From NCBI RefSeq assembly GCF_021729155.1, contig NZ_JAJQYA010000006.1, forward strand, positions 1 through 64,000: a stretch of DNA of 64,000 nucleotides. The letters are read 5' to 3'. Of the stretch, positions 19,069 through 64,000 are shown piece by piece. The DNA is from Membranihabitans marinus. Lineage in GTDB: Bacteria > Bacteroidota > Bacteroidia > Chitinophagales > Saprospiraceae. The notes under the pieces are model-generated. The model made no database searches. It saw only the letters and a list, made by a program, of their open reading frames with translations, and was not told the origin of the DNA. The position numbers and the translations under genes were made by a program. The stretch's first letter is position 1, and each line of letters opens with the position of its first letter.

Positions 19069-19671
19069 TCATAATTCTGTAAAACAAATCAGCCATAAAA
19101 TGACTTCCAATTTTTGAATGGTTTTGCGCAATCTTTCGACGGCACGATGTATATATATTCTGGCCACGCTGGTTTGAATATTCATGATCTTAGAGATTTC
19201 CGGATAGGATAGGTTGGAGAAATATCTGAGGTAAAGAGTTTGCTTGAGGTAGTCGGGGAGTTGATCTATTTCTTCTTGTAACAAGAGTCGCTGTGCGGAT
19301 TGAACTTCTTTTTCCATCCACTTACTTTCTGGACTCGCCGCGGTTAGTACTTCTAAGACTGTGTTTTGCAAATCGATATGAGTAGATTTGTCTTTGCTAC
19401 TATTTACTTCGCGAATAAGATTGTTGCGCATGGCTCGAAATAGATATAAATCAGGTCGATCCAATTTTTTTACCCTCTTAGGATTTTCGATAAACCATAT
19501 CAGGATATTTTGGATGGCATCTTCTACCAATTGTACATCATCGCTGATAAGTCGACCAAATTTAATAAAGTCATTGTAGTGATTGAGATAGAACAGACGA
19601 TAGGCTTTTTCATGACCTTCAGCCATTTGTTTTAAAGTGAACACTAGATCGCTATCATCTTGCGCTTTCAT
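19069..19671 (-). CDS. ECF RNA polymerase sigma-70 factor 1 (FecI/Bacteroidota expansion type)
   Basis: The 200-residue protein has sigma region 2 (YRLFYLNHYNDFIKFGRLIS, VEDAIQNILIWF, YLFRAMRNNLIREV) and region 4 (QLPDYLKQTLYLRYFSNLSY, PEISKIMNIQTSVARIYIHR), joined by a linker of about 40 residues. It should direct RNA polymerase to the promoter of the neighbouring SusCD operon when released by its anti-sigma partner. The C-terminus ends in a hydrophobic tail, VILWLICFTEL, as do the other two sigma factors in the window. It is divergent from the FecR gene at 19929, with a 257-bp gap. The start is ATG at 19671. Confidence 0.9.
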   Translation of the reverse strand: MKAQDDSDLVFTLKQMAEGHEKAYRLFYLNHYNDFIKFGRLISDDVQLVEDAIQNILIWFIENPKRVKKLDRPDLYLFRAMRNNLIREVNSSKDKSTHIDLQNTVLEVLTAASPESKWMEKEVQSAQRLLLQEEIDQLPDYLKQTLYLRYFSNLSYPEISKIMNIQTSVARIYIHRAVERLRKTIQKLEVILWLICFTEL

Positions 19672-19928
19672 TTTTCAATCTCTCAGTTAATTGGGTTCTA
19701 TAATTTCTAAAACCAAGGTTAGTATGAATCCAAATGTATAGGATAATTTAATAAATTAAGAATAAATGTTTATTTCTAAAAAAAAGGGAACAAAAAATAG
19801 TTTTGTAATTAATTGATTAGTAGATTTTTGGGGAGAGTGCCGAATTAGTTTTGATTTTTTTTTCAAAAACACGTTAATAAAACTTTAAGGTGTTACTCTA
19901 TTATTTGAAACAATCAAAGAACAGATTA

Positions 19929-20960
19929 ATGTCTGAAAGGGGAACAAATATATCAAAGTGGATTAAATACGACTTGTATGATTTTATTGAAGATGAAGAA
20001 ATCCGAACCAATATATTACATGCTGATGAAAGTTTAGCAGAATGGAATCAGGTTCGCAATATTCTACGGGAAAAGAATCCTCATTTTTCGCATGCGGAAA
20101 AAATACTTTGGGATTTACAGGCCTATTTTAATAAGATGGGAATCTCCAATCAAGAAATCGAAGAAAAAATTAATAGCCGTGTCATTCAGTATAGACAACA
20201 ATCAGCTAAAGTTAATACAAAGAATAAGACAATTAGAATAGGGGTAAGATCAGCAGCAGCTGTATTAGTTCTTGTTGCTTTGTTATTTGTCATTAAATGG
20301 TCAAGTCGAACCCATGATGTATATCAGACAGGTAATGGAGAACAAATGTTGGTTGAATTACCAGACGCTACCAAGGTTCACCTAAATGGCAATTCCAGAC
20401 TGGTGTGGAACCGCAATTGGAAATCAGATGGTTTTAGACAAGTCGCCTTAGAGGGTGAGGGATATTTTGAGGTAGAGAAATTGAAGAATATTCCTTTTGA
20501 TGTGCAAGCCGATGATGTGACCATCCACGTGCTGGGTACGGTGTTTAATGTAAACACTCGACGTCAGACTACGAAGGTGTTTCTAGAAGAGGGTAAAATA
20601 AGTTTAAAAGTTAAGGATGTTATCGATGAAGCAATGGAATTGAAGCCAGGTGACAATGTTGAATATAATGCTATCCATAAAAAATTGGATAAAACAGAAG
20701 TGGTAAAGGTTGAGGAATTAGTGGGCTGGAAGGATGGACTATTGATCTATCGACAAGAACCACTAAAGAGGGTGATAGAAGATGTGTCAGATATTTATGG
20801 TAAAAAATTTCAATGGACAGATAGTTCGCTTTTGGATCGAAATATAACGACAACCATTCCTCTCTCTGATTGGAGTATGAGTGCGATGGCTATTCAAATG
20901 GCAATGAATTTAGATTTTGAAGAAACAAATGATACAATCATTATAAAAGAAAAAGACTGA
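19929..20960 (+). CDS. FecR family anti-sigma factor 1
   Basis: A 343-residue single-pass membrane protein. The N-terminal cytoplasmic part (about 1-100) should bind sigma 1; one helix follows (RSAAAVLVLVALLFVIKW), then the periplasmic FecR domain with ELPDATKVHLNGNSRLVWNR, VALEGEGYFEVEK, and VLGTVFNVNTRR, and a C-terminal secretin/TonB-like region that should contact the STN domain of SusC. The frame begins at a GTG at 19890, but ATG at 19929 gives a more natural N-terminus. The N-terminal part is longer than in the other two FecR proteins and shows little similarity to them. It is followed 64 bases later by SusC 1, with a hairpin between the genes. Confidence 0.9.
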   Translation: MSERGTNISKWIKYDLYDFIEDEEIRTNILHADESLAEWNQVRNILREKNPHFSHAEKILWDLQAYFNKMGISNQEIEEKINSRVIQYRQQSAKVNTKNKTIRIGVRSAAAVLVLVALLFVIKWSSRTHDVYQTGNGEQMLVELPDATKVHLNGNSRLVWNRNWKSDGFRQVALEGEGYFEVEKLKNIPFDVQADDVTIHVLGTVFNVNTRRQTTKVFLEEGKISLKVKDVIDEAMELKPGDNVEYNAIHKKLDKTEVVKVEELVGWKDGLLIYRQEPLKRVIEDVSDIYGKKFQWTDSSLLDRNITTTIPLSDWSMSAMAIQMAMNLDFEETNDTIIIKEKD

Positions 20961-20986
20961 GAAAAAATTGCAGCCTTTCCTCAGTC
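20955..20986 (+). promoter_or_regulatory. Hairpin at the fecR-susC junction, locus 1
   Basis: GACTGAG (20955-20961, overlapping the FecR stop codon) pairs with CTCAGTC (20980-20986) around an 18-base loop. A stronger hairpin lies at the same place in locus 2 (34723-34748). No T-run directly follows, so it may be an RNA stability or partial-attenuation element rather than a terminator. Confidence 0.4.
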
Positions 20987-21024
20987 GATTATTAAACTAA
21001 TGTTCAGTTCAAAATTACAAATGT

Positions 21025-24000
21025 ATGGAAATACGATTACTAAAGCAGTGGAAAATACTGATTATTTTCCTAATGATTACATATCATGGTATGGCATTGC
21101 CAGATATAAATTCGAAACTAAAATTCGAAGAAAAATTTCTGATTGAAGTACTGGATGAAATCAGTAGAGAACACAATGTTTACTTTACCTATGATTCAGA
21201 TATGGTTTCTGGAGTGAAAGTGGATTATCAGAAGATAGAGGGAGAAAGCGTCAGGTCTTTACTCTCAAGACTGTTAAAAGAAGTCAATTTTGATTTTAAA
21301 ATTTTTGAAGAGCGGTTTGTTATTATTTATAAGAATAGTAAGGAGGGCATTCAATCACTTGAACAAATGATCCGTCATATGGAAGGCATTGTGTCCGAAA
21401 AGAAGGATGCAGCCAAAAGGACAGAAGCGAAAGTTGACAAATTAAAATTTGATAATGCTAAATCACTTTTTATCAAGAGATTGGTGATCAATATTAGTGG
21501 TCAGATACAAAATGAAGAAGGTGAGCCACTCATTGGAGTAAACGTATTGGTGAAAGGGACGGACAAAGGTACTGCGACCGATATTGAAGGTAATTTTGCA
21601 CTTGAAGATGTGGATGAAAATGCAGTTTTGATTGTATCTTATATTGGGTATCAAACTCAAGAGATTGCATTAAATGGTCGGCGTAACTTTACCATTACAT
21701 TATTGGAAGATGCCCAAACTTTGGATGAGTTGGTTGTTGTAGGAATGGGAGAACAAAGGAAGGCGAGTGTCATCGGAGCTATCTCAAATGTAAATATGGA
21801 CGATTTGAAAATTCCCAATCGTTCTTTAACAAATGCTCTAGCTGGGAGAATGGCTGGTGCCGTAGTCGTACAGCGATCTGGTGAATTGGGAAATGACAAT
21901 GGAGGTTTTTGGATCAGAGGGATTTCTACTTTTAGTTCTAATCGTTCCCCTTTGATATTAGTAGATGGAGTTGAAAGGGATATGCAAAACTTGAATCCTG
22001 AAAATATAGAATCTCTTTCTATTTTAAAGGATGCTTCAGCGACTGCAGTATATGGTGTAAGAGCAGCTAATGGGGTGGTTTTAGTTACGACACGTAAAGG
22101 GGTTAAACAGAAACCCACCATTGAATTTAAAACTGAATATGGAATTTCTGATCTACCTAAATTACCCGACTATTTAGGAGGTGTAGATTATGCAAAATTG
22201 TATAATGAAGCCCTCGGCCGAGATAATTATTCAGAGGATTATATCAGTAATTTAAGCAATCAATCAGATCCTTATCTTTATCCTAATGTAGATTGGTTTG
22301 ATGAAACCTATACCAAGTATTCAAGTAATACCCAATCTACTTTGAATGTCCGAGGGGGAGGAGATGTTGCAAGATACTTTGTAGGATTGGGCTTCTTGGG
22401 TGAAAATGGTAATTTTAGAAACAGTGGCGAAAATAGTTACAACTCTAACTTAAGTCTAAATAGATATAATTTTCGTTCAAATGTCGATATAACCTTGTCT
22501 AAATCTACGGTTGTTGATTTAGAAGTAGGAGGGCATTTAACGGATTTGCATACCCCCGGACTGGGAGGAAATATTTATGGAACAAATTATTCACCAGCAG
22601 GTGAATTGTTTTATTGGTCCAATTTAGCAACGCCTATATCTAATTCTGTAAGGATACCTCTTGGCATCGATGCAAATGGAAATGAAATATATGGATGGGG
22701 TGCACCCTCTCAAGTGGGTGAAAAAAACCCAGCGGAGCGATTATTGGGTTCTGGATATAATACTCAGTATAGCAACCAGGTAATGAGTCAAATTACATTA
22801 AATCAGGAGTTAAATGCAATTGCCGAAGGCTTGAAACTTAGAACTTCATTTTCATTTGATGCTTATAATTTAACTAGTATCCAAAGGAGAAAACAATCTA
22901 CTACCTATGGAGTCCAAGGAAGAGATCCAAATACCGGAGATCTTCTTTATAATGAAGTGGATCAAGGTCAGGAATTTTTAAATTACTCTAGAGCTTTGGA
23001 AAGCAATAGAGCCAAGGAATTTAAATTTCAATTGATTTATAGTAAAAAAATGAGTAATAAACACCGGATTGGTGGAATGGCAATGTATTACCATAGAGAC
23101 TATATAAATGGGAATGCCTCTTCTTCTATTCTTGCTTTGCCTTATAGAAGACAAGGAATTGCAGGCCGAATGACCTATGATTATAACGATCGATACTTCG
23201 GAGAAATCAATGTTGGTTACAATGGTTCTGAGAATTTTCCAAAAGGAAATAGATTTGGTGTTTTCCCTGCCATTGCTGCTGGATGGCTTGTTTCGAATGA
23301 GTCTTTCTGGAGTGGTAATTTAAAGAGAATAATCAATGTGTTGAAGTTGAAAGGATCTTATGGTCTTGTTGGTTCAGAAGCACTTCCTGGTGGTGAGCGT
23401 TACGGATATTTATCTATTTATGGAGCGGGTCTTGGAGGTTATTCATTTGGTGAAACCAGTCGATATTTCGGAGGTGTTGGATTGGATAGAATTGGAGTGC
23501 AAGATTTGACTTGGGAAAAAGGAATCAAGAAAAATGTTGGTTTTGAGATGTTGATGTTCAACGGAGATGTTTCGTTAGAAGTTGATTATTTCCATGAAAG
23601 AAGATATGATATCTTGTTACAGCGAACTTCCTTACCTGGAATTGTTGGAATTAATTCTGTACCCTTTGCCAATTTTGGAGAAATGATTAACAGAGGACTA
23701 GATGGGACTCTTGAATTAACCAGAGACTTTAATGATGGTTTTGTGCGGGTCTACGGTAATTTTACATATGCAAGAGATCGTATTATAGAACAGGATGAGC
23801 CGAATAGAAATTATGATTATAGAAATCGAACAGGGCATAAATATGGTCAGAATTTTGGATTAATAAGTTTGGGCTATTTCATAGATGAAAATGATATAGA
23901 GAATAGTCCGCTGCAGACTTTCGGAGAAGTTCGTCCAGGAGATGTAAAGTATAAAGATATCAATGGCGATGGCTTAATCACAATAGATGATGAAGTACCC

Positions 24001-24501
24001 ATTGGCTATTCAAACCTACCCGAGATCAATTATGGTTTCGGTGTACAAACCATGTATAAAAATTTCGATGTCGGAGTGTTTTTCAGAGGACAAGGGCGAG
24101 TTTCATATGGCTTAGGAGGGGCTTATATTCCTTTCAATCAAGGTGTTGGTAAAGGAAATTTGTTTGTTCAAGCTTTAGACCGTTGGACAGTAGAAAATCC
24201 TTCTCAAGATGCACAATATCCAAGATTGTATAATGGTACTTCTGCCAATAACTGGCAACGGTCCACGAAGACTATCTACGATGGTAGTTTTTTAAGACTT
24301 TCCAATGTTGAATTAGGATATACTTTAAGTGGGGATAAACTGGCTAAGATCGGCTTAGAGCGACTTAGGTTTTACCTCATAGGCAATAACATTGCTGTAT
24401 TTTCTAAATGGAAAATGTGGGATCCTGAGACTGGAACTGCAAGTGGAAGTAATTATCCACTTCAAAGGAAATTTAATTTTGGAATAAGAGGTACGTTTTA
24501 A
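21025..24501 (+). CDS. SusC/RagA TonB-linked outer membrane transporter 1, with STN domain
   Basis: A 1158-residue TonB-dependent importer. In order: signal peptide (ILIIFLMITYHGMALP), STN signalling domain (about 30-110, with HNVYFTYDSDMVSGVKVDYQ), a helical linker (EGIQSLEQMIRHMEGIVSE), a carboxypeptidase-like beta sandwich (about 155-232, GEPLIGVNVLVKGTDKGTAT), the TonB-box-like LDELVVVG near 238, the plug (IRGISTFSSNRSPLILVDGV, SILKDASATAVYGVRAANG), and a long beta barrel ending in NFGIRGTF with a terminal aromatic. It should import an oligomeric nutrient together with SusD 1 and signal its presence to FecR 1 via the STN domain. Confidence 0.95.
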   Translation: MEIRLLKQWKILIIFLMITYHGMALPDINSKLKFEEKFLIEVLDEISREHNVYFTYDSDMVSGVKVDYQKIEGESVRSLLSRLLKEVNFDFKIFEERFVIIYKNSKEGIQSLEQMIRHMEGIVSEKKDAAKRTEAKVDKLKFDNAKSLFIKRLVINISGQIQNEEGEPLIGVNVLVKGTDKGTATDIEGNFALEDVDENAVLIVSYIGYQTQEIALNGRRNFTITLLEDAQTLDELVVVGMGEQRKASVIGAISNVNMDDLKIPNRSLTNALAGRMAGAVVVQRSGELGNDNGGFWIRGISTFSSNRSPLILVDGVERDMQNLNPENIESLSILKDASATAVYGVRAANGVVLVTTRKGVKQKPTIEFKTEYGISDLPKLPDYLGGVDYAKLYNEALGRDNYSEDYISNLSNQSDPYLYPNVDWFDETYTKYSSNTQSTLNVRGGGDVARYFVGLGFLGENGNFRNSGENSYNSNLSLNRYNFRSNVDITLSKSTVVDLEVGGHLTDLHTPGLGGNIYGTNYSPAGELFYWSNLATPISNSVRIPLGIDANGNEIYGWGAPSQVGEKNPAERLLGSGYNTQYSNQVMSQITLNQELNAIAEGLKLRTSFSFDAYNLTSIQRRKQSTTYGVQGRDPNTGDLLYNEVDQGQEFLNYSRALESNRAKEFKFQLIYSKKMSNKHRIGGMAMYYHRDYINGNASSSILALPYRRQGIAGRMTYDYNDRYFGEINVGYNGSENFPKGNRFGVFPAIAAGWLVSNESFWSGNLKRIINVLKLKGSYGLVGSEALPGGERYGYLSIYGAGLGGYSFGETSRYFGGVGLDRIGVQDLTWEKGIKKNVGFEMLMFNGDVSLEVDYFHERRYDILLQRTSLPGIVGINSVPFANFGEMINRGLDGTLELTRDFNDGFVRVYGNFTYARDRIIEQDEPNRNYDYRNRTGHKYGQNFGLISLGYFIDENDIENSPLQTFGEVRPGDVKYKDINGDGLITIDDEVPIGYSNLPEINYGFGVQTMYKNFDVGVFFRGQGRVSYGLGGAYIPFNQGVGKGNLFVQALDRWTVENPSQDAQYPRLYNGTSANNWQRSTKTIYDGSFLRLSNVELGYTLSGDKLAKIGLERLRFYLIGNNIAVFSKWKMWDPETGTASGSNYPLQRKFNFGIRGTF

Positions 24502-24511: not shown

Positions 24512-26464
24512 ATGAAATTTTTAAATATAACAATATTAGCATTTTTATTATTGGGTTGTGATTTTTTGGAAAAGCTTCCTGATGATATGAAAAATGATGT
24601 TACTGTTTGGACATCAAGAGAAGAAACTGAGAGTTTTCTATATAATATCTATGCGCCTATTCCATCACCAGCATTAAATACAGGTTATGGATTTATGGGG
24701 ATTTCAGATGAAATAGATTTTACTTGGAATGTTTATCCCAGTTACAATATTAATCTAGGTAATTGGAATCCCAATTCTAATTTTCAAAATCACTGGTCAA
24801 CATTTTATAAAGCCATCCGCGCTTCTTTAATTTTTGAAAATAATGTGGATAGAAACTTTGAGTTAAGTGAAGAACTTATCCGTCAATATAAAGCGGAGTC
24901 TAAATTCTTAAGAGGTTATTATTATTGGTTACTGATACGTCAATACGGACCTGTGCCTCTTATTAAAGAAGAACGACCCGTTAGTGCTGACTGGAATATT
25001 CCTCGCGCTCCTTTCGATGAAATCGTTGATTACATCGTTACCTTAATGGATGAGGCTCAAAACGATCTGCCAGCTCGTTGGAATAATACAGATCAAAATT
25101 GGTTAGGCAAACCAGACCAAATGGTTTGTAAAGCAGTCAAAGCCGCTGTCCTTACCACTGCTGCAAGTCCTCAATGGAATGGCAATAGTGATTATGCTGG
25201 TTTTACAAATAAAGATGGTACTCCATTGGCAGAGACTACTTATGACGTTAAAAAATGGGAAAGGGCTGTCGAAGCCAATCGGGAAGCGATAAATTTTGCT
25301 GAAAGCAGTGCAGTAAATGTAAGATTGTATAAAAACAATGAAAACGGGAAGGGTGAAACATTTAGTCCATTTAAATCAGTCAGACAGGTTCATTTAGACG
25401 GATGGAATCCAGAAATTATTTGGGGAAAATCTAATTATAGTCCTGCTGGATGGTCTGTTCACGGCTCTCCAGGGCCCAATAATTTGGGAGGAATTGCGCC
25501 GACACAAAGAATCGTAGATGCCTTTTTAATGAATAATGGAAAATGGATTTCAAGTCCAGAATCTAATTATATTGAGGAAGGATTTGCAGAATCTGGAGGT
25601 GAATTTTATAAGCCAAAAAATTTAGATGAAATCGATGACAGGGTTGAAATAATAGAAGCAATTAAAAGTGAAGATGCATGGGGACATTGGCCTGGTGAAT
25701 GGAATATGTACGCTAATAGAGAACCTCGATTTTACGCTTCTATCCTGTACAATAAACGAATTATTCCTCAATTGCCTCGGGATGTTCAAAAAAGAGACTA
25801 TTACTCCTCTCCGAATCAACAAAACGGATATGGAAGGGTAGAGTTTTATTATGGTGGAGCATCTAGGAAATCAGGTTCGTTTACTTTTTTCCCCCGTACA
25901 GGGTATCTAGTTCTTAAAAATATTAGCTTCCAAAGCAATATGAGAGATCGTATCTATGCTGATGCCAACCGAACCTTGATTTTTATCCGATATGCGAATG
26001 TTTTATTAGATTATATCGAATCTTTAAACGAAATCGATCCTTCTCATCCTGATATTGAAAAATATTGGAATGCGATAAGAGAAAGAGCAGGTGTGCCTAA
26101 TATATATGATGTATATCCAGAAATAAAAGGGAACAAAGATGTACAACGTGAACATATACTAAGAGAAAGACAAATTGAATTGGCTTTTGAAGAATCTTTT
26201 GATCGATATTATACGATGAAAAGAAGGTTGTTGGCGGGTACAGAAGACGATGGAAGTCCTTATAGACAGTATGGTGACGGAGGAAAAATGTGGGGTATGA
26301 ATATTAATGCAGGGGATCCCACTACAAATAATTTCGAATATGAAGGATTTTATGAAAGAGTACCTTTTGAAACTAGAGTGTTTGATAAAAAAATGTACTT
26401 ATTCCCCATACCTCAAAGTGAAATAGATAGAAACTCAGCTTTGGTCCAGAACCCAGGTTGGTAA
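24512..26464 (+). CDS. SusD/RagB outer-membrane nutrient-binding lipoprotein 1
   Basis: The 650-residue lipoprotein has a signal with lipobox LLLGCDF (acylated Cys about residue 16), followed by SusD-like TPR helices (KAIRASLIFENNV, ESKFLRGYYYWLLIRQYGPV) and the C-terminal RagB/SusD part (ILRERQIELAFEESFDRYYT), ending in QNPGW as usual. It is longer than most SusD proteins (about 500-600) because of a large loop around 330-480. It starts 10 bases after the SusC stop, so the two are translationally linked and should form the SusC2D2 pedal-bin transporter. The ligand is unknown. Confidence 0.93.
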   Translation: MKFLNITILAFLLLGCDFLEKLPDDMKNDVTVWTSREETESFLYNIYAPIPSPALNTGYGFMGISDEIDFTWNVYPSYNINLGNWNPNSNFQNHWSTFYKAIRASLIFENNVDRNFELSEELIRQYKAESKFLRGYYYWLLIRQYGPVPLIKEERPVSADWNIPRAPFDEIVDYIVTLMDEAQNDLPARWNNTDQNWLGKPDQMVCKAVKAAVLTTAASPQWNGNSDYAGFTNKDGTPLAETTYDVKKWERAVEANREAINFAESSAVNVRLYKNNENGKGETFSPFKSVRQVHLDGWNPEIIWGKSNYSPAGWSVHGSPGPNNLGGIAPTQRIVDAFLMNNGKWISSPESNYIEEGFAESGGEFYKPKNLDEIDDRVEIIEAIKSEDAWGHWPGEWNMYANREPRFYASILYNKRIIPQLPRDVQKRDYYSSPNQQNGYGRVEFYYGGASRKSGSFTFFPRTGYLVLKNISFQSNMRDRIYADANRTLIFIRYANVLLDYIESLNEIDPSHPDIEKYWNAIRERAGVPNIYDVYPEIKGNKDVQREHILRERQIELAFEESFDRYYTMKRRLLAGTEDDGSPYRQYGDGGKMWGMNINAGDPTTNNFEYEGFYERVPFETRVFDKKMYLFPIPQSEIDRNSALVQNPGW

Positions 26465-26496: not shown

Positions 26497-27342
26497 ATGA
26501 AAAATATAAAATATTTACTGTTTATACTTATACTCAGTGGAGTAGGTATAGGTTGTGAAAAAGGAATTGATCTTATTGAGGTAGAAGGTAAAGTTTATTT
26601 ACCTAATGCGGGAGTTTCTGAGTATTCCCCACTACTAGGTGAGTCAACATATCAACTAGGCGTATATAGATCTGGAATTAATCAAAAAATTGGAGACCTG
26701 TCGATCAATTTAGATGTTAATGAAAGTTTATTGGAGGATTTTTTAGGTGAAAATCCAGGTTTTCAAATGCTCCCAGAAGATTTTTATACTATTCCGACAA
26801 AGGAATTAGTATTAAACGAAGGAGAAGAAAGAGTGATGTTTGATATTTTACTTAAAAATATAGATAGTACTTTTCCCGATACAAATTATGTATTGCCTGT
26901 AAGCATTAAAGAGGTTGATCCTGTCGTGGAAATTATTGAAACACAGAGAGATGCTTTTTTGATTATGAAGAGATTTAGAAATCAATATGAAGGCTTATAC
27001 AAGATCAAGGGGACGGAATTGTCAGTAGAGAGTAATGTAGTTAGCGCTATTGATGTTGTGAAAAACGCCATTTCTGTAGATGATAAATCCATTAGAATAG
27101 ATGGTTTGACAAATGGAGTAAATCTTATTGTCAAAATTAATGACGATGGTGTCGTAGATATAACGCCTGGTTTGGGTTCAGAGGATTTGGGTATTGTGAA
27201 TACTCCAGATAAAAAAAGTACCTACAGTGGTCAATTTAGTGCGGAATATCAAAGAAGTATGGGGGTATTGAAATTATATTATACCTATACCATAAACGAC
27301 AAGGAAATAAATGCAGAAATTGAATTAAAATCATGGTTGTAA
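26497..27342 (+). CDS. DUF1735-containing surface lipoprotein
   Basis: The 281-residue product has a lipoprotein signal (YLLFILILSGVGIGCEK, Cys about residue 20), then a beta-rich DUF1735 (PF08522) domain: VYLPNAGVSEYSPLL, LGVYRSGI, then LPEDFYTIPTKELVLNEGEE, the pattern of BT_3987-like N-terminal domains. The C-terminal half resembles the lipocalin-like/DUF4361 partner (YEGLYKIKGTEL ... YYTYTINDKEINAEIELKS). In other Bacteroidota these proteins sit behind SusCD and are thought to be surface glycan-binding proteins. Its place 32 bases after SusD 1 fits that role. Confidence 0.82.
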   Translation: MKNIKYLLFILILSGVGIGCEKGIDLIEVEGKVYLPNAGVSEYSPLLGESTYQLGVYRSGINQKIGDLSINLDVNESLLEDFLGENPGFQMLPEDFYTIPTKELVLNEGEERVMFDILLKNIDSTFPDTNYVLPVSIKEVDPVVEIIETQRDAFLIMKRFRNQYEGLYKIKGTELSVESNVVSAIDVVKNAISVDDKSIRIDGLTNGVNLIVKINDDGVVDITPGLGSEDLGIVNTPDKKSTYSGQFSAEYQRSMGVLKLYYTYTINDKEINAEIELKSWL

Positions 27343-28463: not shown

Positions 28464-28554
28464 TATGTATTTTAGGCGGTGATTCTTCTATGTTAAATAA
28501 GTTTCAGGATATTGGTTTCTTTAGTAGGAAGAATTATTTTTGAAAAACTATAAT

Positions 28555-30264: not shown

Positions 30265-30430
30265 GTATTTGTATAAACTCATTTCGTATAACTAGGGTTT
30301 TTTATGGTATGCCATGCAATTCTATTTCCATCTATGATTTATCATAAATAAGTTTTGGTCGACTTTTCTTATAAATTCAATACAGTCTGTTTTGTGTGTT
30401 TAAAATGATTTAATTAATTCCTGATTAGTG

Positions 30431-42725: not shown

Positions 42726-42736
42726 AAGTGATTTAT

Positions 42737-44206: not shown

Positions 44207-44299
44207 GTAAATATTTACTAGACTGTCTTAGCATTATAGTTAAAGGTGGTGATTTTAATCATTGTAATAAAGTGAATTGTGGATAATATCAAAAATAGT

Positions 44300-45775: not shown

Positions 45776-45797
45776 CATTTTATAAAAGGTATGTTTT

Positions 45798-48824: not shown

Positions 48825-48844
48825 TTAATATAAAGTACAATTCA

Positions 48845-49771: not shown

Positions 49772-49782
49772 GAATTCAAATT

Positions 49783-49800
49783 AAATGCATTTGGTATAAT
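49783..49800 (+). repeat. Dispersed element end motif, copy 5
   Basis: AAATGCATTTGGTATAAT, the inverted form of the copy at 39852, located in the 39-base gap between the two TIM-barrel genes. Confidence 0.45.
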
Positions 49801-49810
49801 ACAATATATT

Positions 49811-56000: not shown

Positions 56001-56744
56001 TGGGGTTGGTCGGCCGATGGCTTGTTTCAGTCCCAAGCAGAAATTGAAAATCATGTAGATCAATCATTTATTTACAACGTTTGGAATACAGGAGATGTAA
56101 AATACAACGACATCAATGGCGATGGGAAGATAGACAATGGTTCCAATACCTATGACGATCACGGTGATTATGTACTGATTGGGAATTCTAGTCCTCGCTA
56201 TCAATTCGGGATCAATATGGGCGTCAATTACAAAGGATTTGATTTTTCTATGTTGTGGAAGGGTACTGGCAAGCGTCAAAAGGCAATGACTTATAACGAC
56301 TACGGATTTTTTGGATTCATGAGAACGGCTTGGTCTCAGCCCAAAGAAGATCACCTAGATTATTACAGAGATCAGCCTGGAACACAATACATTGGCCTTT
56401 ATGAAGGTGAAGCCAATATCAATACCGATTCTTATTACGCTCGACCTTACTTGGATATCAACTCCAATCTTAAAAACCAGAACGGGAATTCTAGATATCT
56501 AGCGAATTATGCCTATATCCGTTTGCAAAATATGCAATTGGGATATAGTTTAAGTAAGAACGCATTGTCGCGATTGGGCCTTAGTAAATTGAGGGTTTAT
56601 ATTGCGGGCAACAACATTATTACCTTCGATCATTTGCCAGATGGCATGGATGTGACCTTGCCTTCCGGGGGGTATAGAGAGAGTACAGGTAAAGAATATA
56701 GAGCCGATCGCATCTATTCCTTTGGAGTAAACATCTCGTATTAA
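53091..56744 (+). CDS. SusC/RagA TonB-linked outer membrane transporter 3, with STN domain
   Basis: The longest SusC of the window at 1217 residues. Signal peptide (LFMLLCWMLLLCYQSPLGYA), STN domain (about 38-112, EYGVFFNYDRSIVSKVKVNY), linker EGLQSLKKMIEHFQGIVDE, carboxypeptidase-like domain (about 165-240, GEPLIGVNVMVKGSTTGTST), TonB-box-like LDELVVVGYG near 244, plug (IRGIGSLNGGAPYVVIDGFP, SVLKDAAASAIYGARAPYG), and a barrel ending in IYSFGVNISY. The plug reads A-P-Y-G where the other two read A-N-G or S-N-G. It pairs with SusD 3, 25 bases downstream. Confidence 0.95.
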   Translation: MKLQLLFKIKGKLFMLLCWMLLLCYQSPLGYAAPSERENTVLLEEAFRQIGSEYGVFFNYDRSIVSKVKVNYTAAKYSDVEQALNAVLSQANLKFKIFEQRYVAIYKDNAEGLQSLKKMIEHFQGIVDEKESEYEARKAIKSTPFLTKKSLQEEGIFLKRLVLNVSGKVVDTDGEPLIGVNVMVKGSTTGTSTDFNGQFSLNDVEEQAVLVFSYIGYVTTEMPVAGKSTMNVTLMADVQTLDELVVVGYGSQKKVNLTGAVEVIGQDVLKDRNASSVSQLLIGAAGGFDFSFDKNGYQPGANATVGIRGIGSLNGGAPYVVIDGFPGDMNRLNPEDIESISVLKDAAASAIYGARAPYGVILITTKSGSKEDKLVVNYSGSMNLVTPAKLPGTLDSYTFARVTNEAATNNNAPLYYNESTIDRIIAFQQGDYDYIRSQFPSNFPNDPISDWSALPMDNGSWAGANNGHANNDYWDLATGPNLGQSHNFSIQGGSNKVGYFLSMGYTDQKSSMQWADDFYKRFNLSAKIKTELTDWWDLKYEGRFMKNQRFFPTGSRPETIDSYNALFHIVYNTPPTQPLYNSFGGPIQSTKQFFSAGNNNDQQTENWQILGTELRPATNWKINLDVAYQMMDEYDLHDGQAFSQVNWITGENTTSWYPSQIYEYHFSNYYWSTNAYTSYEWNIAGDHNFLAMAGAQYESAKDRSLNAYARNLIVPDIISLNTATGDPSVREALSQWSTEGYFGRLTYNFQEKYLLETNLRYDGTSKFLDNKRWGFFPSVSGGWVVSKENFWQPVASTINTLKLRGSWGELGNQNVAAYQDLALIQLTKNILDWLPGQDQVGQVGYALTPNLVSPLLTWETAATTNIGVDLEMLNNKLQMNFDWFERNTKDMIGPSETLPGVLGASVPRSNNSSLRTRGWELSLNWKEYVNEDLSYSVGFNLYDSKSVVTKYNNPTGYLGSWREGQDVGEIWGWSADGLFQSQAEIENHVDQSFIYNVWNTGDVKYNDINGDGKIDNGSNTYDDHGDYVLIGNSSPRYQFGINMGVNYKGFDFSMLWKGTGKRQKAMTYNDYGFFGFMRTAWSQPKEDHLDYYRDQPGTQYIGLYEGEANINTDSYYARPYLDINSNLKNQNGNSRYLANYAYIRLQNMQLGYSLSKNALSRLGLSKLRVYIAGNNIITFDHLPDGMDVTLPSGGYRESTGKEYRADRIYSFGVNISY

Positions 56745-56769: not shown

Positions 56770-58482
56770 ATGAAAACAGCCAAATATATATTCGTTGTAT
56801 TGACATCATTTGTCGTCCTGTCCTGTCAAGATTTTCTGGAAAAACCGCCATTAGATCAAGTGGGTCTAGATGATTATTGGAAGTCTACAATTGATCTTAA
56901 AAATTATGTAGCTAAGTTTTATATCGACCTTCCTCGACATGAAAACAATAGACATAGTGGTTACCAAGAAGAAGAATCAGATAATCTAGTCTACACTAGA
57001 GCCAATGCATTACTCAATGGAGAAAATACTCTGTCAACGGGATCGTGGCAATATGATTTCACCCCTGTTCGGAGTATCAATATCTTTTTCGACAATTATA
57101 AAAGATGCGAAGATCAATTTTCGTCTTACCAACACTATCTGGGAGAAGCGCAGTTCTTTAAAGCATGGATCTACTTTAACTTGGTCCAAAAGTATGGAGA
57201 TGTTCCTTGGTATACTCATGCATTAACCGTCAATGATGAAGAAGAATTAACCAGACCACGTGATTCAAGAGTCCTGGTAGTAGATTCTATTTTGTCTCTT
57301 TTGGATAAGGCTATTGTCAATTTGGATAAAAGAGACCTTGCTCCTTGGAACAACAACTCTGTAAATAAGGAAGCTGCCCTTGCTTTTAAAACTAGAGTGG
57401 CTCTGTTTGAAGGAACTTGGCAGAAATACCATGCCAATACCTCATTTGGAAGTTCTGGAGCTCAACCTAGTAAATATTTTCAATTAGCGGTTTCTGCAGC
57501 TGAAGAACTGATTAATGGAGATTATAATGTCGGTATATATTCTACCAATAAACCGAAGGAAGATTACTACTATTTGTTTGGTACTGGTAGTATGGCAGAT
57601 ATTAGTGAAGTGTTGTTACACAGAGCTTATAGTATAGCTGATATTGTTGGACATAATCAAAACTATTATGCAGCCAATGCCCCCAATGAACTTGGAGCTA
57701 CTTGGTCTTATGTTACTTCTCACCTTGGTTTGGACGGTAATCCAATCGATTATTTGGCTTTGGCTGAGACTGCTAAAGGGAATGAATTTTTACTTGAATT
57801 GGATAAACAAATCGATCCTAGATTGAGACAGAATATCTGGATTCCAGGAGATATCACTTATTTACCTGGTAATTTGGTTTGGGAGAAACCAGGTTTATTT
57901 GAGGATAGTCGAAATAATTGTCCAACAGGGTTTCAAATAAAAAAGTATACCAATCCCAATCAAACTTTGGATTATGCTCAATCTAATGACGCGGGTAAAA
58001 TTATTTTTAGGTATGGCGAGGTTTTGTTGAATTATGCCGAAGCACTTTATGAGCTCAATCAAACTGTGGCTTACGATGAACTCAATATGTTGAGAGCGAG
58101 AGTTGGTATGCCTGATTTTAAGGTGAATGCTCAAAGTGAAGATCCCAATCTTATCGATTATGGTTATGATATTTCTGATGAATTATATGAAATTAGAAGA
58201 GAAAGACGGGTAGAATTGGCATTTGAATCTTTTAGACAATGGGATTGGAAAAGATGGGCTGCCGGAGCATTATTTACCAATAAGAGACCTAAAGGATATC
58301 CTTTCGATTCAAATGAGTATCCCAATGAAAATCCACTGTTGGACGAAAATAGTTTAATAGACCTCCTTCAGAACATTATTCCAAATGGCTACAATTTTAA
58401 TGCGAATCGAGATTATTTAAACAGTGTTCCTCAAACAGAGTTAACAGTCAATCCAAATTTAGATCAAAATCCGGGTTGGTAA
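56770..58482 (+). CDS. SusD/RagB nutrient-binding lipoprotein 3
   Basis: A 570-residue SusD protein with lipobox VLSCQDF (Cys about 19). The helical core includes YLGEAQFFKAWIYFNLVQKY and KEAALAFKTRVALFEGTWQK, and the C-terminal part has FRYGEVLLNYAEALYELNQT and IRRERRVELAFESFRQWDWK, ending in DQNPGW. Normal length, no breaks. A strong terminator lies 50 bases behind it, which separates the transporter transcript from the ceramidase-like, esterase and oxidoreductase genes that follow. Confidence 0.93.
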   Translation: MKTAKYIFVVLTSFVVLSCQDFLEKPPLDQVGLDDYWKSTIDLKNYVAKFYIDLPRHENNRHSGYQEEESDNLVYTRANALLNGENTLSTGSWQYDFTPVRSINIFFDNYKRCEDQFSSYQHYLGEAQFFKAWIYFNLVQKYGDVPWYTHALTVNDEEELTRPRDSRVLVVDSILSLLDKAIVNLDKRDLAPWNNNSVNKEAALAFKTRVALFEGTWQKYHANTSFGSSGAQPSKYFQLAVSAAEELINGDYNVGIYSTNKPKEDYYYLFGTGSMADISEVLLHRAYSIADIVGHNQNYYAANAPNELGATWSYVTSHLGLDGNPIDYLALAETAKGNEFLLELDKQIDPRLRQNIWIPGDITYLPGNLVWEKPGLFEDSRNNCPTGFQIKKYTNPNQTLDYAQSNDAGKIIFRYGEVLLNYAEALYELNQTVAYDELNMLRARVGMPDFKVNAQSEDPNLIDYGYDISDELYEIRRERRVELAFESFRQWDWKRWAAGALFTNKRPKGYPFDSNEYPNENPLLDENSLIDLLQNIIPNGYNFNANRDYLNSVPQTELTVNPNLDQNPGW

Positions 58483-58581: not shown

Positions 58582-58783
58582 AATGAGGTAATCATCTTTA
58601 TTTACCATCTGCATTTCACTTTATAAATTTTAATTATTGAAGGTTAAAACTCGGCCTTTCAAATATATAAACAGTTGTTATCTAATGGAAAAGCATTTCT
58701 GTTTTAATTTGTAAATAATTAATGTTAAATAAATAATATTATATACTTTACAGTGTTTGTCTCCCTAATTAAGTTGAAAATAT

Positions 58784-60223
58784 ATGTATAAATACAAGTT
58801 TGTTTTAATAGTATTTTTTACGGTAATGTTGAGGACTTTGCAAACCAATGCACAAGAAAACAAGGTGTTTCGGGCCGGAGCATCGCAAGCTGATGTATCA
58901 CCGCCAATCGGAGCAAAGATTTATGGTAATTGGGTGCAACCATCAGCAAAATCTATTCACGACGCCCTTCACGCCAAGTCATTGGTGTTGGACGATGGTG
59001 AAACAAAGATCGCTTTAGTGGTGGTGGATTTAGTAGAAATCAATAAACGATATATTGAAGCGGCCAAAGACTTAATTGTATCAGAGGTAGATTTGGATAG
59101 AGAAAACATAATGATTTCCGCAACCCACACCCATTCTGGGCCCAGTGCTGACGGAGATGTTTTTGTGGCTGATGATGCTCCTTTGAATGATTATACCAAG
59201 ATGCTTGTTAGAAAATTGGCAGATGGGGTTGTGTCAGCTTATTACCATTTAGAACCTGCGGAAATAGCATGGGGTGGAGTTGATGTGCCTGATCACGTAT
59301 TTGTGAGACGTTGGATTCTTAAAGATTCGGTGTATAGTCCATACGGGACAAAAGATATAGTGAAAATGAACCCTGGGTTTGAAAATCCCGCACTGGTTAA
59401 GCCGTCTGGCCCTATTGATCCCGAAGTTTCTTTTGTATCCATTCGATCCACTACTGGACGACCGATTGCCGTGCTGGCCAACTATTCCCTTCATTATGTA
59501 GGGGGTGTGCCCGGTGATGAAATTTCAGCTGATTATTTTAGTTTGTTTGGTAGATATATGGAGCAAAATATATCTGCAGAAGCTTCATTTCCTCAATTTG
59601 TAGGCATTATGTCTAACGGTAGTTCCGGTAACGTTAACAACTTTGATTACAGCAAACCTCGCGAATATTATGAGCCCTATGTCAAGATGAATAGAGTAGC
59701 CAAGGATTTGGCCGATAAGGTGTATGCTGAGATGAAAGAATTAAAGTATCAAAAATATGTGCCTATCAATGCTAAAGAATCTATTCTGCGATTAAAAGTA
59801 CGTCGAGCTTCGCCTGAGGTCATGGCCAATGTTGCGAGAATTCAAGCTAGATCTGAAAACGAAAAACCCTTTTATAATAATTGGGAAAAGATGTATGCCA
59901 ATAGAGTATTGACCATGGAAGCTACTTGGCCCGACTCCATCGATATAACATTGCAAGCTTTTCAGATAGGTGACTTGGGCATCGCTACTCTGCCTTTTGA
60001 AGCGTTTACGCAAACCGGCTTGGAAATCAAGGACAAGAGTCCATTTGATCATACTTTTACGATTGAATTGGCCAATGGTTGTCTGAATTATTTGCCTACT
60101 CCAGAAGAAATAGACATGGGAGGCTACGAAACTTGGCATACCATCAATCGAGTGGAAAGAAATGCTTCTGTAAAAATAACCGAAGAATTGTTATCCCTAT
60201 TTAAATCATTAAAACAACAATAA
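58784..60223 (+). CDS. Neutral ceramidase-family secreted protein, divergent fourth copy
   Basis: A 479-residue exported member of the same superfamily (signal FVLIVFFTVMLRTLQTNAQ). It starts FRAGASQADVSPPIGAKIYG and has SATHTHSGPS (His115, His117) and NYSLHYVGG (His237), so both zinc-type His regions are intact. Where copies 1-3 have GDQSP it reads SNGSSGNVNNF, which lacks the nucleophilic serine position of ceramidase. This is the form common in Planctomycetes and marine Bacteroidota, with no established activity. It is much less like the three tandem copies than they are like each other and probably arrived separately. It begins a three-gene run with the esterase (24-base gap) and the oxidoreductase (40-base gap). 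Confidence 0.82.
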   Translation: MYKYKFVLIVFFTVMLRTLQTNAQENKVFRAGASQADVSPPIGAKIYGNWVQPSAKSIHDALHAKSLVLDDGETKIALVVVDLVEINKRYIEAAKDLIVSEVDLDRENIMISATHTHSGPSADGDVFVADDAPLNDYTKMLVRKLADGVVSAYYHLEPAEIAWGGVDVPDHVFVRRWILKDSVYSPYGTKDIVKMNPGFENPALVKPSGPIDPEVSFVSIRSTTGRPIAVLANYSLHYVGGVPGDEISADYFSLFGRYMEQNISAEASFPQFVGIMSNGSSGNVNNFDYSKPREYYEPYVKMNRVAKDLADKVYAEMKELKYQKYVPINAKESILRLKVRRASPEVMANVARIQARSENEKPFYNNWEKMYANRVLTMEATWPDSIDITLQAFQIGDLGIATLPFEAFTQTGLEIKDKSPFDHTFTIELANGCLNYLPTPEEIDMGGYETWHTINRVERNASVKITEELLSLFKSLKQQ

Positions 60224-60247
60224 ATTTTATCTTATCAATATATAGTT

Positions 60248-62545
60248 ATGAAGTTTAGTATTGCTCTTATTTTTTTTATTCTATTCGGTATAAGTGAGTC
60301 TACTTTTGCTCAATCCATGACGAGAGAACTGTCTTCTGGTGTGCAAATGTTAGATGAGTATCACTATAGTCATTCATTGTCTGCCAATAGAAGCTATCGG
60401 ATTTTTCTGCCTCCCAACTACGAGGTTAATTCAGATAAAAAATACCCTGTAATCTACTACTTTCATGGCTGGGCTCAAAGGTATTTTGGTTCCATGGGCA
60501 AAGGCTATGCAAATTATGATAAGGGAGATGAAAATAATGGAGACAATATTGAAAAATTTGTTTCCGAAAACGATGTAATCGTGGTAAAGGTTGATGGATT
60601 GAATAATTTTTCTACCGATCCGTTGAATCTCAGTCCTTATAACGTAAGTTCTGTGACCACTTTTCGTCAATTCCCCAATTACTTTTTAGAACTCATAGAT
60701 TTTATTGACAGTAGGTATCGTACGATTCCTGATCGAGAGCATCGTGCCGTATCGGGTTTGTCTATGGGCGGGTTTATGACTTTTTGGTTGTCGGCCAAAT
60801 TTCCAGATAAAATAAGTGCGGCTGGTAATTTTTGTGGTTCTACTGAATTTTCAGCTGGACTGGTAGAGTATCCTGTAGTGTATACCCACGCCGAAATGTA
60901 CGATAACTATAAGGCCACTCACATTAGGATGAATAATGGAACACGAGATCGATTGAGATTTTATCATGAGGATATGAATCGAGTTTTGCTAAATGTTTTA
61001 TCTCAATATGAGTTTCATGTATACGAAGCTTCACATGTTACCTGTGGTTTGGGTGATATGTTTGATTTTTTAATGAAAGCATTCGAGTCACCACTGCCAT
61101 TGCCTGAACGCTGGGACTATATCGATATTTATCCTTTTTTTGAAGTCTGGGATTATAAAGTGGAGACAGATCGAAACAGGGGTGGATTTACCATTTTGGA
61201 AAATGTAGATGAGGCTGGATTTAATATTGCGGTTAGAAACTTTTTACCTGACGGACAATTGATGACTCAAGTTGCAGTCAAAGTGATTACGGCCCCTTTG
61301 TATCAGAAAAATACTAAGTATTACGTGGTGGATGTTGATCTGAGAAATCAGCAATCTAATACTTATGAAGTGATGAGTGATAATGAAGGCCGGTTGGCGA
61401 TTGTGACCACAGGAAGTCAGCATCAAATAAGTATTGCTCCCAATACAGATCAAAGCAACTTGAGCTTGGCTAATTTTTCACTTAATAATATGGAGTGGGC
61501 AGAAACGGGTAAAGAAATAGAGTTTAGTATCGATATCTTAAATAAAGGAATGGCTGCCGCTTCTTCTATAAAGGCGGAATTGTTGTCATTGAGTGAAGGA
61601 TTGGAAGTCCTGTCTGGTCAAGGCGTGCTCTCAAGTTTGAAGTCTCAAGAAATGGCTCAACTTAAAGGTCGATTTAAGATTATTAATCGCAAGGAAGGTG
61701 TGGAAATTGCTAAATTTTTATTGACTTTAACCGATGGGGATGGAGGTAAATGGGAGGAAGAATTTGAACTTCGATTTAAAGATCCTGTTTCAGAAATTGT
61801 GGATTTTGTGATAGCCGACGGTAAAGAAATGACGGTTATTGAGCAAGCTGTTCAACCGGTAACTAAAATAGTAGGGCTAGGAAATGGAGATGGAATAGCG
61901 AACCCTGGAGAGACCATCGTTATTTTGGTTAAAGATGGGGATCAATATTACCAAACCTATGCCTATACTACAAATCCCGTCATTAACCCCAATGGTGTTA
62001 GTATCCGAGTGGACGATCCATGGCAAGAATACGATCACATTGGTGGTTCGTTTAAGTATATGATGCCGGTTATCGATACAGAAAAAGGTGCAGGGGAAGT
62101 AGTGAATTTTTATATTGAATATTGGGTCCCTGGAAATCTTAGTGGTCAACACATAATTAAAAAGGGGAAGGTAAGGGTTAGAATAAAAGGTGAAGATACT
62201 ACGCCTCCTCAAGTCCAGTATGTGCAGTTACATAACAATGACAGGATAGAAGCACGTATTTACGATGGGCAACAAGTAGAAAAAGTAACGATGACTTTCA
62301 CACCGAATGAAGAAACATCAACTATGAGATATGTCGGATGGGATGAAGTAAAGAAACAATTTGAAGTTCAGCTGTACGACAACGGTGAAAACGGTGATGT
62401 AGAGGCTGGAGATGGAATATTTAGTCGACAGATTCGCAAGCGCTCATCCTATTTTTACAATATTTCTATGAAGATAAAAGATGGCTTGGGCAATGAAGTT
62501 TCGATTCAGTGGCCGGAGGTTTTATTCCTAAAGGATACTTATTAA
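60248..62545 (+). CDS. Secreted esterase-fold (PF00756-like) multidomain protein
   Basis: The 765-residue protein has a signal peptide (ALIFFILFGISESTFAQ) and an N-terminal alpha/beta hydrolase of the esterase D/feruloyl esterase type: RSYRIFLPPNYEVNSDKKYP, VIYYFHGWAQ, the nucleophile elbow GLSMGG with Ser172, and a likely catalytic His in ASHVTCGLGDMF (about 262). After about residue 290 come beta-sandwich regions: one with FNIAVRNFLPDG, one with SLANFSLNNMEWAETGKEIE resembling a CARDB-like adhesion domain, and a C-terminal one ending VLFLKDTY. The esterase part may remove ester groups from a glycan or cleave aromatic esters. Export and size suggest a surface or secreted enzyme. Confidence 0.82.
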   Translation: MKFSIALIFFILFGISESTFAQSMTRELSSGVQMLDEYHYSHSLSANRSYRIFLPPNYEVNSDKKYPVIYYFHGWAQRYFGSMGKGYANYDKGDENNGDNIEKFVSENDVIVVKVDGLNNFSTDPLNLSPYNVSSVTTFRQFPNYFLELIDFIDSRYRTIPDREHRAVSGLSMGGFMTFWLSAKFPDKISAAGNFCGSTEFSAGLVEYPVVYTHAEMYDNYKATHIRMNNGTRDRLRFYHEDMNRVLLNVLSQYEFHVYEASHVTCGLGDMFDFLMKAFESPLPLPERWDYIDIYPFFEVWDYKVETDRNRGGFTILENVDEAGFNIAVRNFLPDGQLMTQVAVKVITAPLYQKNTKYYVVDVDLRNQQSNTYEVMSDNEGRLAIVTTGSQHQISIAPNTDQSNLSLANFSLNNMEWAETGKEIEFSIDILNKGMAAASSIKAELLSLSEGLEVLSGQGVLSSLKSQEMAQLKGRFKIINRKEGVEIAKFLLTLTDGDGGKWEEEFELRFKDPVSEIVDFVIADGKEMTVIEQAVQPVTKIVGLGNGDGIANPGETIVILVKDGDQYYQTYAYTTNPVINPNGVSIRVDDPWQEYDHIGGSFKYMMPVIDTEKGAGEVVNFYIEYWVPGNLSGQHIIKKGKVRVRIKGEDTTPPQVQYVQLHNNDRIEARIYDGQQVEKVTMTFTPNEETSTMRYVGWDEVKKQFEVQLYDNGENGDVEAGDGIFSRQIRKRSSYFYNISMKIKDGLGNEVSIQWPEVLFLKDTY

Positions 62546-62585
62546 AGGTGTTTTCTAAATAATAGAATATAAAAAATATATAATT

Positions 62586-63878
62586 ATGGATAGGAGATCA
62601 TTTATTGTGCAAAGTAGTATAGTTTCAGGTGGTGCTATGGTCGGTTCTCCGGCTATAGTAAAAATATCAAATATTAATTCCAATTTAAAAGTAGGTATCG
62701 TAGGCTGTGGAGGCCGAGGTACTGGTGCTGTAGTTCAGGCTTTGATGGCCCACCCTGGCAATACATTGGTAGCCATGGGGGATTTATTTGAAAGTCATAT
62801 TGAATTAAGGCATGAAGCATTGTTAGATGTAGAAGAAATAGCAGATAGAGTCAATGTTCCAAAAGAAAATAAATTTACTGGGTTCGACGCTTATCAAAAG
62901 GTTATCAAAGCTTGTGATGTGGTGATATTGGCCACACCTCCAGGTTTTCGACCAGAGCATTTTGAATTTGCTGTAGCAGAGGGCAAACACGTATTTATGG
63001 AGAAGCCTTTGGCTACCGATGGCTATGGTATCCGCAGGATATTGAAAAGTGGAGAGTTGGCTGATAAAAAGGGGGTGAAAGTTGTCGTCGGCTTGCAAAA
63101 TCGCTATGATCCTGCTTTTTCGCAAATGGTTGATCAATTAAAAGCTGGCATCATCGGTCCAATACTTACGAGCACGTGCTACTATATGAAAGGGGGTTAT
63201 AAATTAATTCCACGGTCAAGTACTCAAAATGAATTGGAGTTTCAAATTAAGAATTATCACTATTTCAATTGGTTGTGGGCCGGAGCCCCAGGTGGATTAG
63301 CTATTCACAATACCGATATTGTACATTGGGCCAAAGGGACTTATCCCATTAGTGCCCAAGGTCTGGGTGGGAGAGCTAAACTGAGTGGTCCTGATACTGG
63401 AGATACTTTCGATCACTACTATATAGAGTATACCTATGCCGATGGAAGTAAATTGCATAGTCAGATTAGAAATATTGAAAAGAATTTTAATAAAAATGGA
63501 GCATGGATTACGGGAAGCAAAGGTGTTGCTAATGTTAGAGAAGGGATTTTAGATCACAATGGACAAGTTTTATGGCAATTTGATAGCCAATCTGCTGAAA
63601 ATTCCTATCAGGTTGAACACGATGTTTTGTTTGATGCCATTATCAATAATAAGGCTAAAAACGATACTGTCTTTGGGGCTCATAGTTCTCTGGCGTCAAT
63701 TATGGGTAGAATGGCATCTCATTCTGGTCAAGTAATTACTTGGGATCAAGCATTAAATGCTGCGGAGCGACTGGTTCCAGACATTGCGGATTGGACTGAT
63801 GTGCCCCCCGTAAAGCCAGATAGTCAAATGGTTTATCCTTATTCAGTACCAGGCGGTAGCAATAAATATTTATGGTAA
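62586..63878 (+). CDS. Tat-exported Gfo/Idh/MocA family oxidoreductase
   Basis: A 430-residue protein with a twin-arginine signal (MDRRSFIVQSSIVSGGAMVG) followed by the NAD(P)-binding loop VGIVGCGGRGTGAVVQAL (about 37-54), the family motif VFMEKPLATDGYG with Lys-Pro, and the C-terminal substrate domain with AIHNTDIVHWAKG, where His-x-x-Asp-x-x-His is the catalytic/binding region. It closely resembles the exported Gfo/Idh/MocA proteins of Bacteroidota and Planctomycetes, some of which carry tightly bound NAD and work as sugar 3-oxidases or redox glycosidases in the periplasm. The exact activity cannot be read. Last gene of the window; a terminator follows. Confidence 0.9.
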   Translation: MDRRSFIVQSSIVSGGAMVGSPAIVKISNINSNLKVGIVGCGGRGTGAVVQALMAHPGNTLVAMGDLFESHIELRHEALLDVEEIADRVNVPKENKFTGFDAYQKVIKACDVVILATPPGFRPEHFEFAVAEGKHVFMEKPLATDGYGIRRILKSGELADKKGVKVVVGLQNRYDPAFSQMVDQLKAGIIGPILTSTCYYMKGGYKLIPRSSTQNELEFQIKNYHYFNWLWAGAPGGLAIHNTDIVHWAKGTYPISAQGLGGRAKLSGPDTGDTFDHYYIEYTYADGSKLHSQIRNIEKNFNKNGAWITGSKGVANVREGILDHNGQVLWQFDSQSAENSYQVEHDVLFDAIINNKAKNDTVFGAHSSLASIMGRMASHSGQVITWDQALNAAERLVPDIADWTDVPPVKPDSQMVYPYSVPGGSNKYLW

Positions 63879-63967
63879 TAGCCGGAGTGTAAACAATGAG
63901 GGCAATAAGGTTTTGTTTTTATAGAAGCTAAAGTTTTTATTTTTTCATAATTATAGTATCCTACGAA

Positions 63968-64000
63968 AACGGGGGTTGAAGTAATTCAATCCCTGTTTTT
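63968..64000 (+). terminator. Rho-independent terminator at window end
   Basis: AACGGGGGTTGAA (63968-63980) pairs with TTCAATCCCTGTT (63985-63997) with two G-T pairs and a 4-base loop, followed by T residues to the window end. It closes the ceramidase-like/esterase/oxidoreductase transcript. Confidence 0.75.

Follow-up and report, generated by a model that had tools for sequence, protein, structure and literature searches.

The 64,000-nucleotide window analysed here (positions 1-64000 of contig C66, NZ_JAJQYA010000006.1, from a genome of 5.4 Mb in 78 contigs) carries at 41.3-50.7 kb an operon of six genes, for three ceramidase-fold proteins (CerA-C), a DUF7133 lipoprotein with heme c and two AP_endonuc_2 barrels. 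This operon is a real, recurrent module across Bacteroidota families, little known and uncharacterised. It lies in the second of three loci built around SusC/SusD pairs (21025-24501/24512-26464, 34789-38115/38134-39747 and 53091-56744/56770-58482), all with the features of a polysaccharide utilization locus (PUL): adjacent SusC and SusD, a nearby regulator and cargo genes. A first-pass annotation, made from the sequence alone, had proposed that the window encodes one non-hydrolytic, oxidative route for a glycoside or glycolipid. In our best explanation the window instead holds three independent, separately regulated PUL-type loci, of which locus 2 would oxidise a substituted sugar in the periplasm; we regard this reading, taken whole, as evenly balanced between right and wrong.

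Cargo domains were assigned with Pfam and NCBIfam profiles on the open reading frames (ORFs) of 19.1-63.9 kb. The enzymes first listed around the three SusCD pairs were all recovered: two heme-c proteins, a flavin adenine dinucleotide (FAD) oxidoreductase, a Gfo/Idh/MocA protein, two barrels, four ceramidase-fold proteins, an esterase and a DUF4855 protein. The SusC/D, regulator and cargo ORFs of this region gave no Pfam match to a glycoside hydrolase (GH), polysaccharide lyase (PL), sulfatase or GMC domain, small antisense ORFs being outside the scan. Locus 2 (33.7-50.7 kb) is composed as follows, the PxQ clade being defined below and ECF standing for extracytoplasmic function:

33741..34724, forward: FecR (Pfam)
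34789..38115, forward: SusC2 (CarbopepD_reg_2 and Plug)
38134..39747, forward: SusD2 (SusD_RagB, E-value (E) 2.7e-38)
39976..40509, reverse: ECF sigma factor between SusD2 and the ceramidase operon (Sigma70_r4_2, E 2.1e-17)
41289..42725, forward: CerA, ceramidase-fold, PxQ clade (Ceramidase_alk 33.6 bits, cut-off 32.1; CPAQ motif)
42728..44206, forward: CerB, ceramidase-fold, PxQ clade (under the Pfam cut-off; AlphaFold2 and Foldseek)
44279..45775, forward: CerC, ceramidase-fold, PxQ clade (under the Pfam cut-off; 59% identity to CerB)
45798..48824, forward: lipoprotein with DUF7133 propeller (PVC-type) and C-terminal heme c domain (DUF7133 E 7e-113; CSICH motif; TIGR02604 and TIGR02603 scores both above cut-off)
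48845..49771, forward: predicted exported AP_endonuc_2 barrel 1 (E 5.8e-34; several orthologues with a Tat-like RR start, Tat denoting twin-arginine translocation)
49811..50677, forward: predicted exported AP_endonuc_2 barrel 2 with lipoprotein-like start (E 4.2e-18; 3p6l, E 2e-48)

The six consecutive genes at 41289-50677 are separated by only 2 to 72 bases and therefore look like one operon. Searching 84,980 species genomes with CerA-C yielded 58 loci, 27 in Bacteroidota and 31 elsewhere, mostly in Planctomycetota. In the Bacteroidota set, a DUF7133/cytochrome relative was present at 18 loci, SusC or SusD at 15, barrel 2 at 11 and barrel 1 at 8, always together with DUF7133; because many contigs are short, these counts are lower bounds. 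DUF7133/cytochrome, barrels and SusC/SusD were seen at none of the 31 other loci. Gene order is nearly identical in Cyclobacterium and Dyadobacter (SusC-SusD-Cer-Cer-Cer-DUF7133-barrels), and the Cer-DUF7133-barrel part is likewise present in Lunatibacter and Membranihabitans. This confirmed the neighbourhood conservation of the 41.3-51.0 kb cluster, put forward as a check in the first-pass annotation, with the same parts found in other Bacteroidota families. Within the genome of the window itself (19 ceramidase-fold and 26 DUF7133 matches), 9 of 11 ceramidase clusters lie at most 11 kb from a SusD gene, a zone covering 23% of the genome (p about 5e-5, with a distance cut-off chosen post hoc), and 5 of 11, the window cluster among them, at most 8 kb from DUF7133 (6% of the genome). 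A recurrent operon pairing ceramidase-fold proteins with DUF7133, often with SusCD, offers a concrete testable unit.

The same genome holds 68 SusD, 65 sulfatase, 20 3keto-disac_hyd (DUF1080) and 5 GMC matches, and with 68 SusD matches genome-wide three SusCD pairs within 45 kb are unremarkable alone. This richness would suit three ordinary PULs with accessory redox genes, their glycosidases being supplied by other parts of the genome, as would the sulfatase-type genes found directly before the module in the sister-species genome (G183, Membranihabitans marinus DP5N28-2, hereafter M. marinus). However, DUF7133 and barrel 1 accompany CerA-C across families beyond what is expected of accessory genes, and we consider this alternative unlikely. 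Also beside the M. marinus module is a 1293-residue protein (L090:5763-9644) in which DUF6807 is fused with DUF7133, HEAT repeats and cytochrome c.

The ceramidase-fold proteins of the module share the fold of neutral ceramidases. CerA and CerD, the latter from locus 3, exceed the Pfam ceramidase cut-off, and CerB and CerC fall under it. An AlphaFold2 model of CerB built from 46 sequences (predicted local distance difference test, pLDDT, 94.4) matched 2zws in Foldseek with E 3.9e-23, and at E <0.001 only neutral ceramidases were matched. The zinc ligands of 2zws, which we take to be the first His of HxH, a second His, a Glu and a Tyr, were placed by alignment. Hardly any of 100 relatives departs from the HxH histidines, the Glu or the Tyr of the metal site. 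At the alignment column of the second zinc His (the third His ligand, as we presume), 26 of them retain His and 74 have a replacement, which nearly always sits in a (C/S/A)P(A/S)Q motif. In a FastTree phylogeny the two sets split perfectly, the 74 replaced sequences forming a PxQ clade with support 1.0; the tree was built with the motif columns left in, which are few among 486. In the genome of the window, PxQ is confined to CerA-C, in which the second of the four presumed zinc-binding residues is thus replaced; the His is retained in the 16 others examined, and CerD keeps all four presumed ligands.

Action of these proteins on true sphingolipids or glycolipids, with SusCD2 and SusCD3 importing lipid-linked glycans, would fit the match to neutral ceramidases and the intact site of CerD. 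Against this, identity to the solved ceramidases (2zws, 4wgk) is about 15%, CerA-C have a shorter chain from which the third presumed His ligand is missing, and the genes alongside in related loci encode enzymes for sugars and sulfate rather than for lipids. We judge this possibility very improbable, and a glycolipid reading drawn from the ceramidase name alone was rejected. Literature searches found nothing relevant on ceramidase-like proteins in PULs and no published role in glycan use for ceramidase-fold proteins or DUF7133 cytochromes. A clade defined by a single presumed metal-ligand change poses a testable biochemical question. Tentatively, the PxQ clade may consist of metal hydrolases of a new class, with substituted or oxidised sugars as substrates, and may form, together with the DUF7133-cytochrome c protein and the exported barrels, an undescribed glycan-cleaving module linked to the respiratory chain, widespread in Bacteroidota and at work where recognisable glycosidases are absent.

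For locus 2, our best explanation runs as follows. A substituted sugar would enter via SusCD, and periplasmic CerA-C would act as hydrolases that strip the substituent (an amide, ester or lactone bond). The DUF7133 lipoprotein would then oxidise the sugar, its own heme c taking the electrons, and the two exported barrels would isomerise, eliminate or hydrate the resulting keto-sugar or lactone. Here and in the other two loci, export, substrate, step order and all catalytic activities are what we infer.

Locus 1 (19.1-33.5 kb) has a different cargo:

19069..19671, reverse: ECF sigma factor (Sigma70_r4_2, E 4e-10)
19890..20960, forward: FecR anti-sigma factor (FecR, E 1.7e-16)
21025..24501, forward: SusC1 TonB-dependent transporter (CarbopepD_reg_2 and Plug; identity 75% to M. 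marinus, 53% to genome G627)
24512..26464, forward: SusD1 (SusD_RagB; identity 78% to M. marinus, 58% to G627)
26497..27342, forward: surface lipoprotein, probably glycan-binding (BT_3987-like_N, BT_3044-like_C)
27333..28463, forward: DUF4855 protein, probable unnamed glycoside hydrolase (E 9e-100)
28540..30264, forward: predicted Tat-exported FAD-dependent oxidoreductase (FAD_oxidored, E 1.3e-93; KRRNF Tat-like start at an internal Met)
30428..33487, forward: lipoprotein with GSDH beta-propeller, PKD, cytochrome c and CBM6 (Pfam; CQSCH heme motif)

Here an imported glycan would be cut by the DUF4855 protein, alongside which the GSDH-cytochrome c protein and the FAD enzyme would oxidise sugars. 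DUF4855 matches over the cut-off came from 2 of 299 genomes in the order and from 2 of 395 in the class, and each pair includes the window genome; no relatives were found in the viral contigs searched. It was found within SusCD loci at five further places, with GH89, GH3 or GH16 adjacent in three. In G627 it follows either relatives of SusC1 and SusD1 and a lipoprotein-like gene, or SusCD and a GH16 gene. In Bacteroides finegoldii, SusCD and a surface lipoprotein stand directly before it, the same arrangement as in the window, and it is followed by GH3 or by GH89 and GH3; one of these loci also has GH20 and sialidase genes close by. An expression table of B. thetaiotaomicron places BT0442 (DUF4855) near BT0438-BT0440, an alpha-N-acetylglucosaminidase and SusCD (PMC10434189). 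Unlike these Bacteroides PULs with their GH89 or GH3, the window locus has the FAD and GSDH-cytochrome c enzymes. In an alignment of eight sequences, E215, E292, E294 and D86 are invariant, and the three Glu residues are candidates for a catalytic role. From its neighbours and invariant Glu residues, DUF4855 is probably an unnamed glycosidase, and a ready candidate for a new family. The earlier statement that no glycoside hydrolase was recognised holds for named domains in the ORFs scanned, with the limit that DUF4855 is itself a probable glycosidase. One further copy, beside a GH16 gene at L071:9352-10953, has a long extra C-terminal region that looks GH16-like by eye.

The GSDH protein can be aligned with 2ism through the HS.G and RNP segments as well, and retains the His and the Arg-Asn pair that we presume to be catalytic. 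It stays beside DUF4855 in M. marinus, where contig C14 carries SusC and SusD, two DUF4855 copies and then the GSDH-cytochrome protein; the FAD enzyme is absent, and a different sulfatase/DUF4962 PUL follows.

Locus 3 (51.2-63.9 kb) is a SusCD, CerD, esterase and Gfo locus:

51203..51742, reverse: ECF sigma factor (profile match)
51933..53000, forward: FecR (profile match)
53091..56744, forward: SusC3 (paralogues at C78 and C30, 46% identity)
56770..58482, forward: SusD3 (paralogues at C78 and C30, 52% identity)
58784..60223, forward: CerD, ceramidase-fold with the canonical His (Ceramidase_alk 48.2 bits; LHYV motif; 67% and 48% identity to the copies at C78 and C30)
60248..62545, forward: predicted exported putative esterase (Esterase, E 2.1e-14)
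62586..63878, forward: predicted Tat-exported Gfo/Idh/MocA oxidoreductase (GFO_IDH_MocA, E 2.6e-13; DRRSF start, EKP motif)

All three SusCD pairs come with a FecR of their own and an ECF sigma gene close by. M. marinus carries the DUF4855 locus on contig C14 and the ceramidase/heme module on C16, so that loci 1 and 2 are not neighbours in the sister species. On these two grounds, the idea that the three loci form one system was rejected. The second ECF gene (39976-40509) lies on the reverse strand downstream of SusD2, whereas in loci 1 and 3 ECF and FecR genes diverge; this position may reflect either a displaced regulator or an inserted operon.

The proposed single route was one in which Gfo or the FAD/PQQ (pyrroloquinoline quinone) enzymes oxidise C3, the AP_endonuc_2 barrels eliminate and electrons pass to heme c. 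Enzyme classes that fit are present, and relevant precedents exist. The published 3-ketoglycoside route uses a LacABC-type dehydrogenase and a DUF1080 hydrolase (BT2157) (PMC9007349), and eliminases such as AtOGE and those acting on C-glycosides work with sugar-isomerase-like partners through oxidation, elimination, hydration and reduction (PMC10628242). Barrel 1 matched the 3-keto-D-glucoside 4-epimerase 6wn6 (E 8e-7), barrel 2 matched AtOGE (8bvk, E 0.0014), and the window Gfo matched the model of the glycoside 3-dehydrogenase BT_2158 (E 1.8e-9). However, this Gfo reached 36.7 bits against a cut-off of 750 for the glycoside 3-dehydrogenase profile NF058561, and it was rejected as such an enzyme. 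It was also rejected as a GH109: only GFO_IDH_MocA and DapB_N were matched in it and Glyco_hydro_109_C was absent, a domain that a Gfo protein at C10 does match. Searches of contig C66 gave no match to DUF1080/3keto-disac_hyd (PF06439) or to GMC, the LacA-type dehydrogenase. Moreover, Gfo and the barrels sit in different loci under different regulators, and the unlinking of loci 1 and 2 tells against a shared route as well. We consider it improbable. Judged by these profile scores, the kinship of Gfo and the barrels with characterised 3-keto enzymes is distant, at superfamily level only; 3-keto cleavage in the window is possible, but the DUF1080-type hydrolase and LacABC-type dehydrogenase of the published pathway were not found in it.

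The window shares with that pathway extracytoplasmic oxidation of glycosides (putative here), and in Bacteroidota too; its genome has the DUF1080 matches and, in one ceramidase locus, a GMC and Gluconate_2-dh3 pair. In our reading, the published pathway includes neither ceramidase-fold proteins nor DUF7133-cytochrome c. The AtOGE operon likewise combines oxidoreductases with sugar isomerase-like proteins, but SusCD loci are not described there. For a 3-keto route, a paralogous oxidative PUL at C76:138001-158000 makes a stronger candidate than the window.

Related loci point to oxidation and to handling of sugar acids or keto-sugars, with removal of amide or ester bonds. The C76 locus holds SusCD, GMC with Gluconate_2-dh3, an amidohydrolase, DUF7133 in two frames, Cer, a polysaccharide deacetylase, an MR_MLE enzyme and barrel 2 (70% identity), and C42 has SusCD, Cer, sulfatase, DUF7133, 3keto-disac_hyd and Cer. 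C10 carries two loci (SusCD, GH109, Cer, GH20; and SusCD, Gfo, aminotransferase, MR_MLE, SDR-like gene, Cer), as does C11 (Cer, GntP, SDR-like gene, AP_endonuc_2, DUF7133; and aminotransferase, M19 dipeptidase, Cer, D-serine dehydratase-like). Genomes of Sphingobacteriales type have DUF7133, Cer, barrel 2, deacetylase, Cer, GntP, ILVD/EDD, an SDR-like gene and SMP-30. The latter set, with its GntP-type permease, ILVD/EDD dehydratase, SDR and SMP-30/gluconolactonase, and the MR_MLE and GntP of the own-genome loci suggest a narrower version of our best explanation, in which locus 2 oxidises C1, not C3, to a lactone and aldonate that is imported and dehydrated. The module in the window holds none of these sugar-acid genes, and C42 and Chitinophagaceae loci carry 3keto-disac_hyd instead, C76 its GMC and Gluconate_2-dh3; C1 oxidation is thus a possible but less than probable variant. 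The related loci are compatible with C1 and C3 oxidation alike and do not decide between them. Of the oxidative route first proposed, what survives is the recurrent 41.3-50.7 kb cluster, whose parts and relatives point to sugar redox, and not the joining of three loci.

Several points weigh against three independent loci with an oxidative locus 2. Since the reverse-strand ECF gene splits SusCD2 from CerA, SusCD2 is assigned to the module by analogy with other genomes. We know of no activity for the PxQ clade or DUF7133. The loci with lactonase and dehydratase are confined to a few related genomes. A PqqC search gave no match, with controls silent too, and is uninformative. Structure-based search of the cargo, another check put forward at first, gave CerB its fold and failed for DUF4855: the single-sequence AlphaFold2 model (pLDDT 38) was discarded as unusable, the profile had no match in the PDB, and hhalign against DUF4434, GH89, DUF4838, barrel 1 and Gfo gave nothing significant. 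DUF4855 proving a hydrolase had been named as what would count against a non-hydrolytic route; its neighbours and invariant Glu residues make it look like a glycosidase, which we only infer because no fold was obtained.

Upstream of locus 1, a 730-residue protein at 13343-15535 carries metallo-beta-lactamase and YHYH domains together with an EF hand. Past the window end, C66:65586-72334 holds RidA, M19 dipeptidase, SDR-like and remotely Gfo-like genes on the reverse strand, and then, on the forward strand, Gfo/Idh/MocA and AP_endonuc_2. These last two show no evident export signal and make up a classic pairing of oxidoreductase and isomerase near locus 3.

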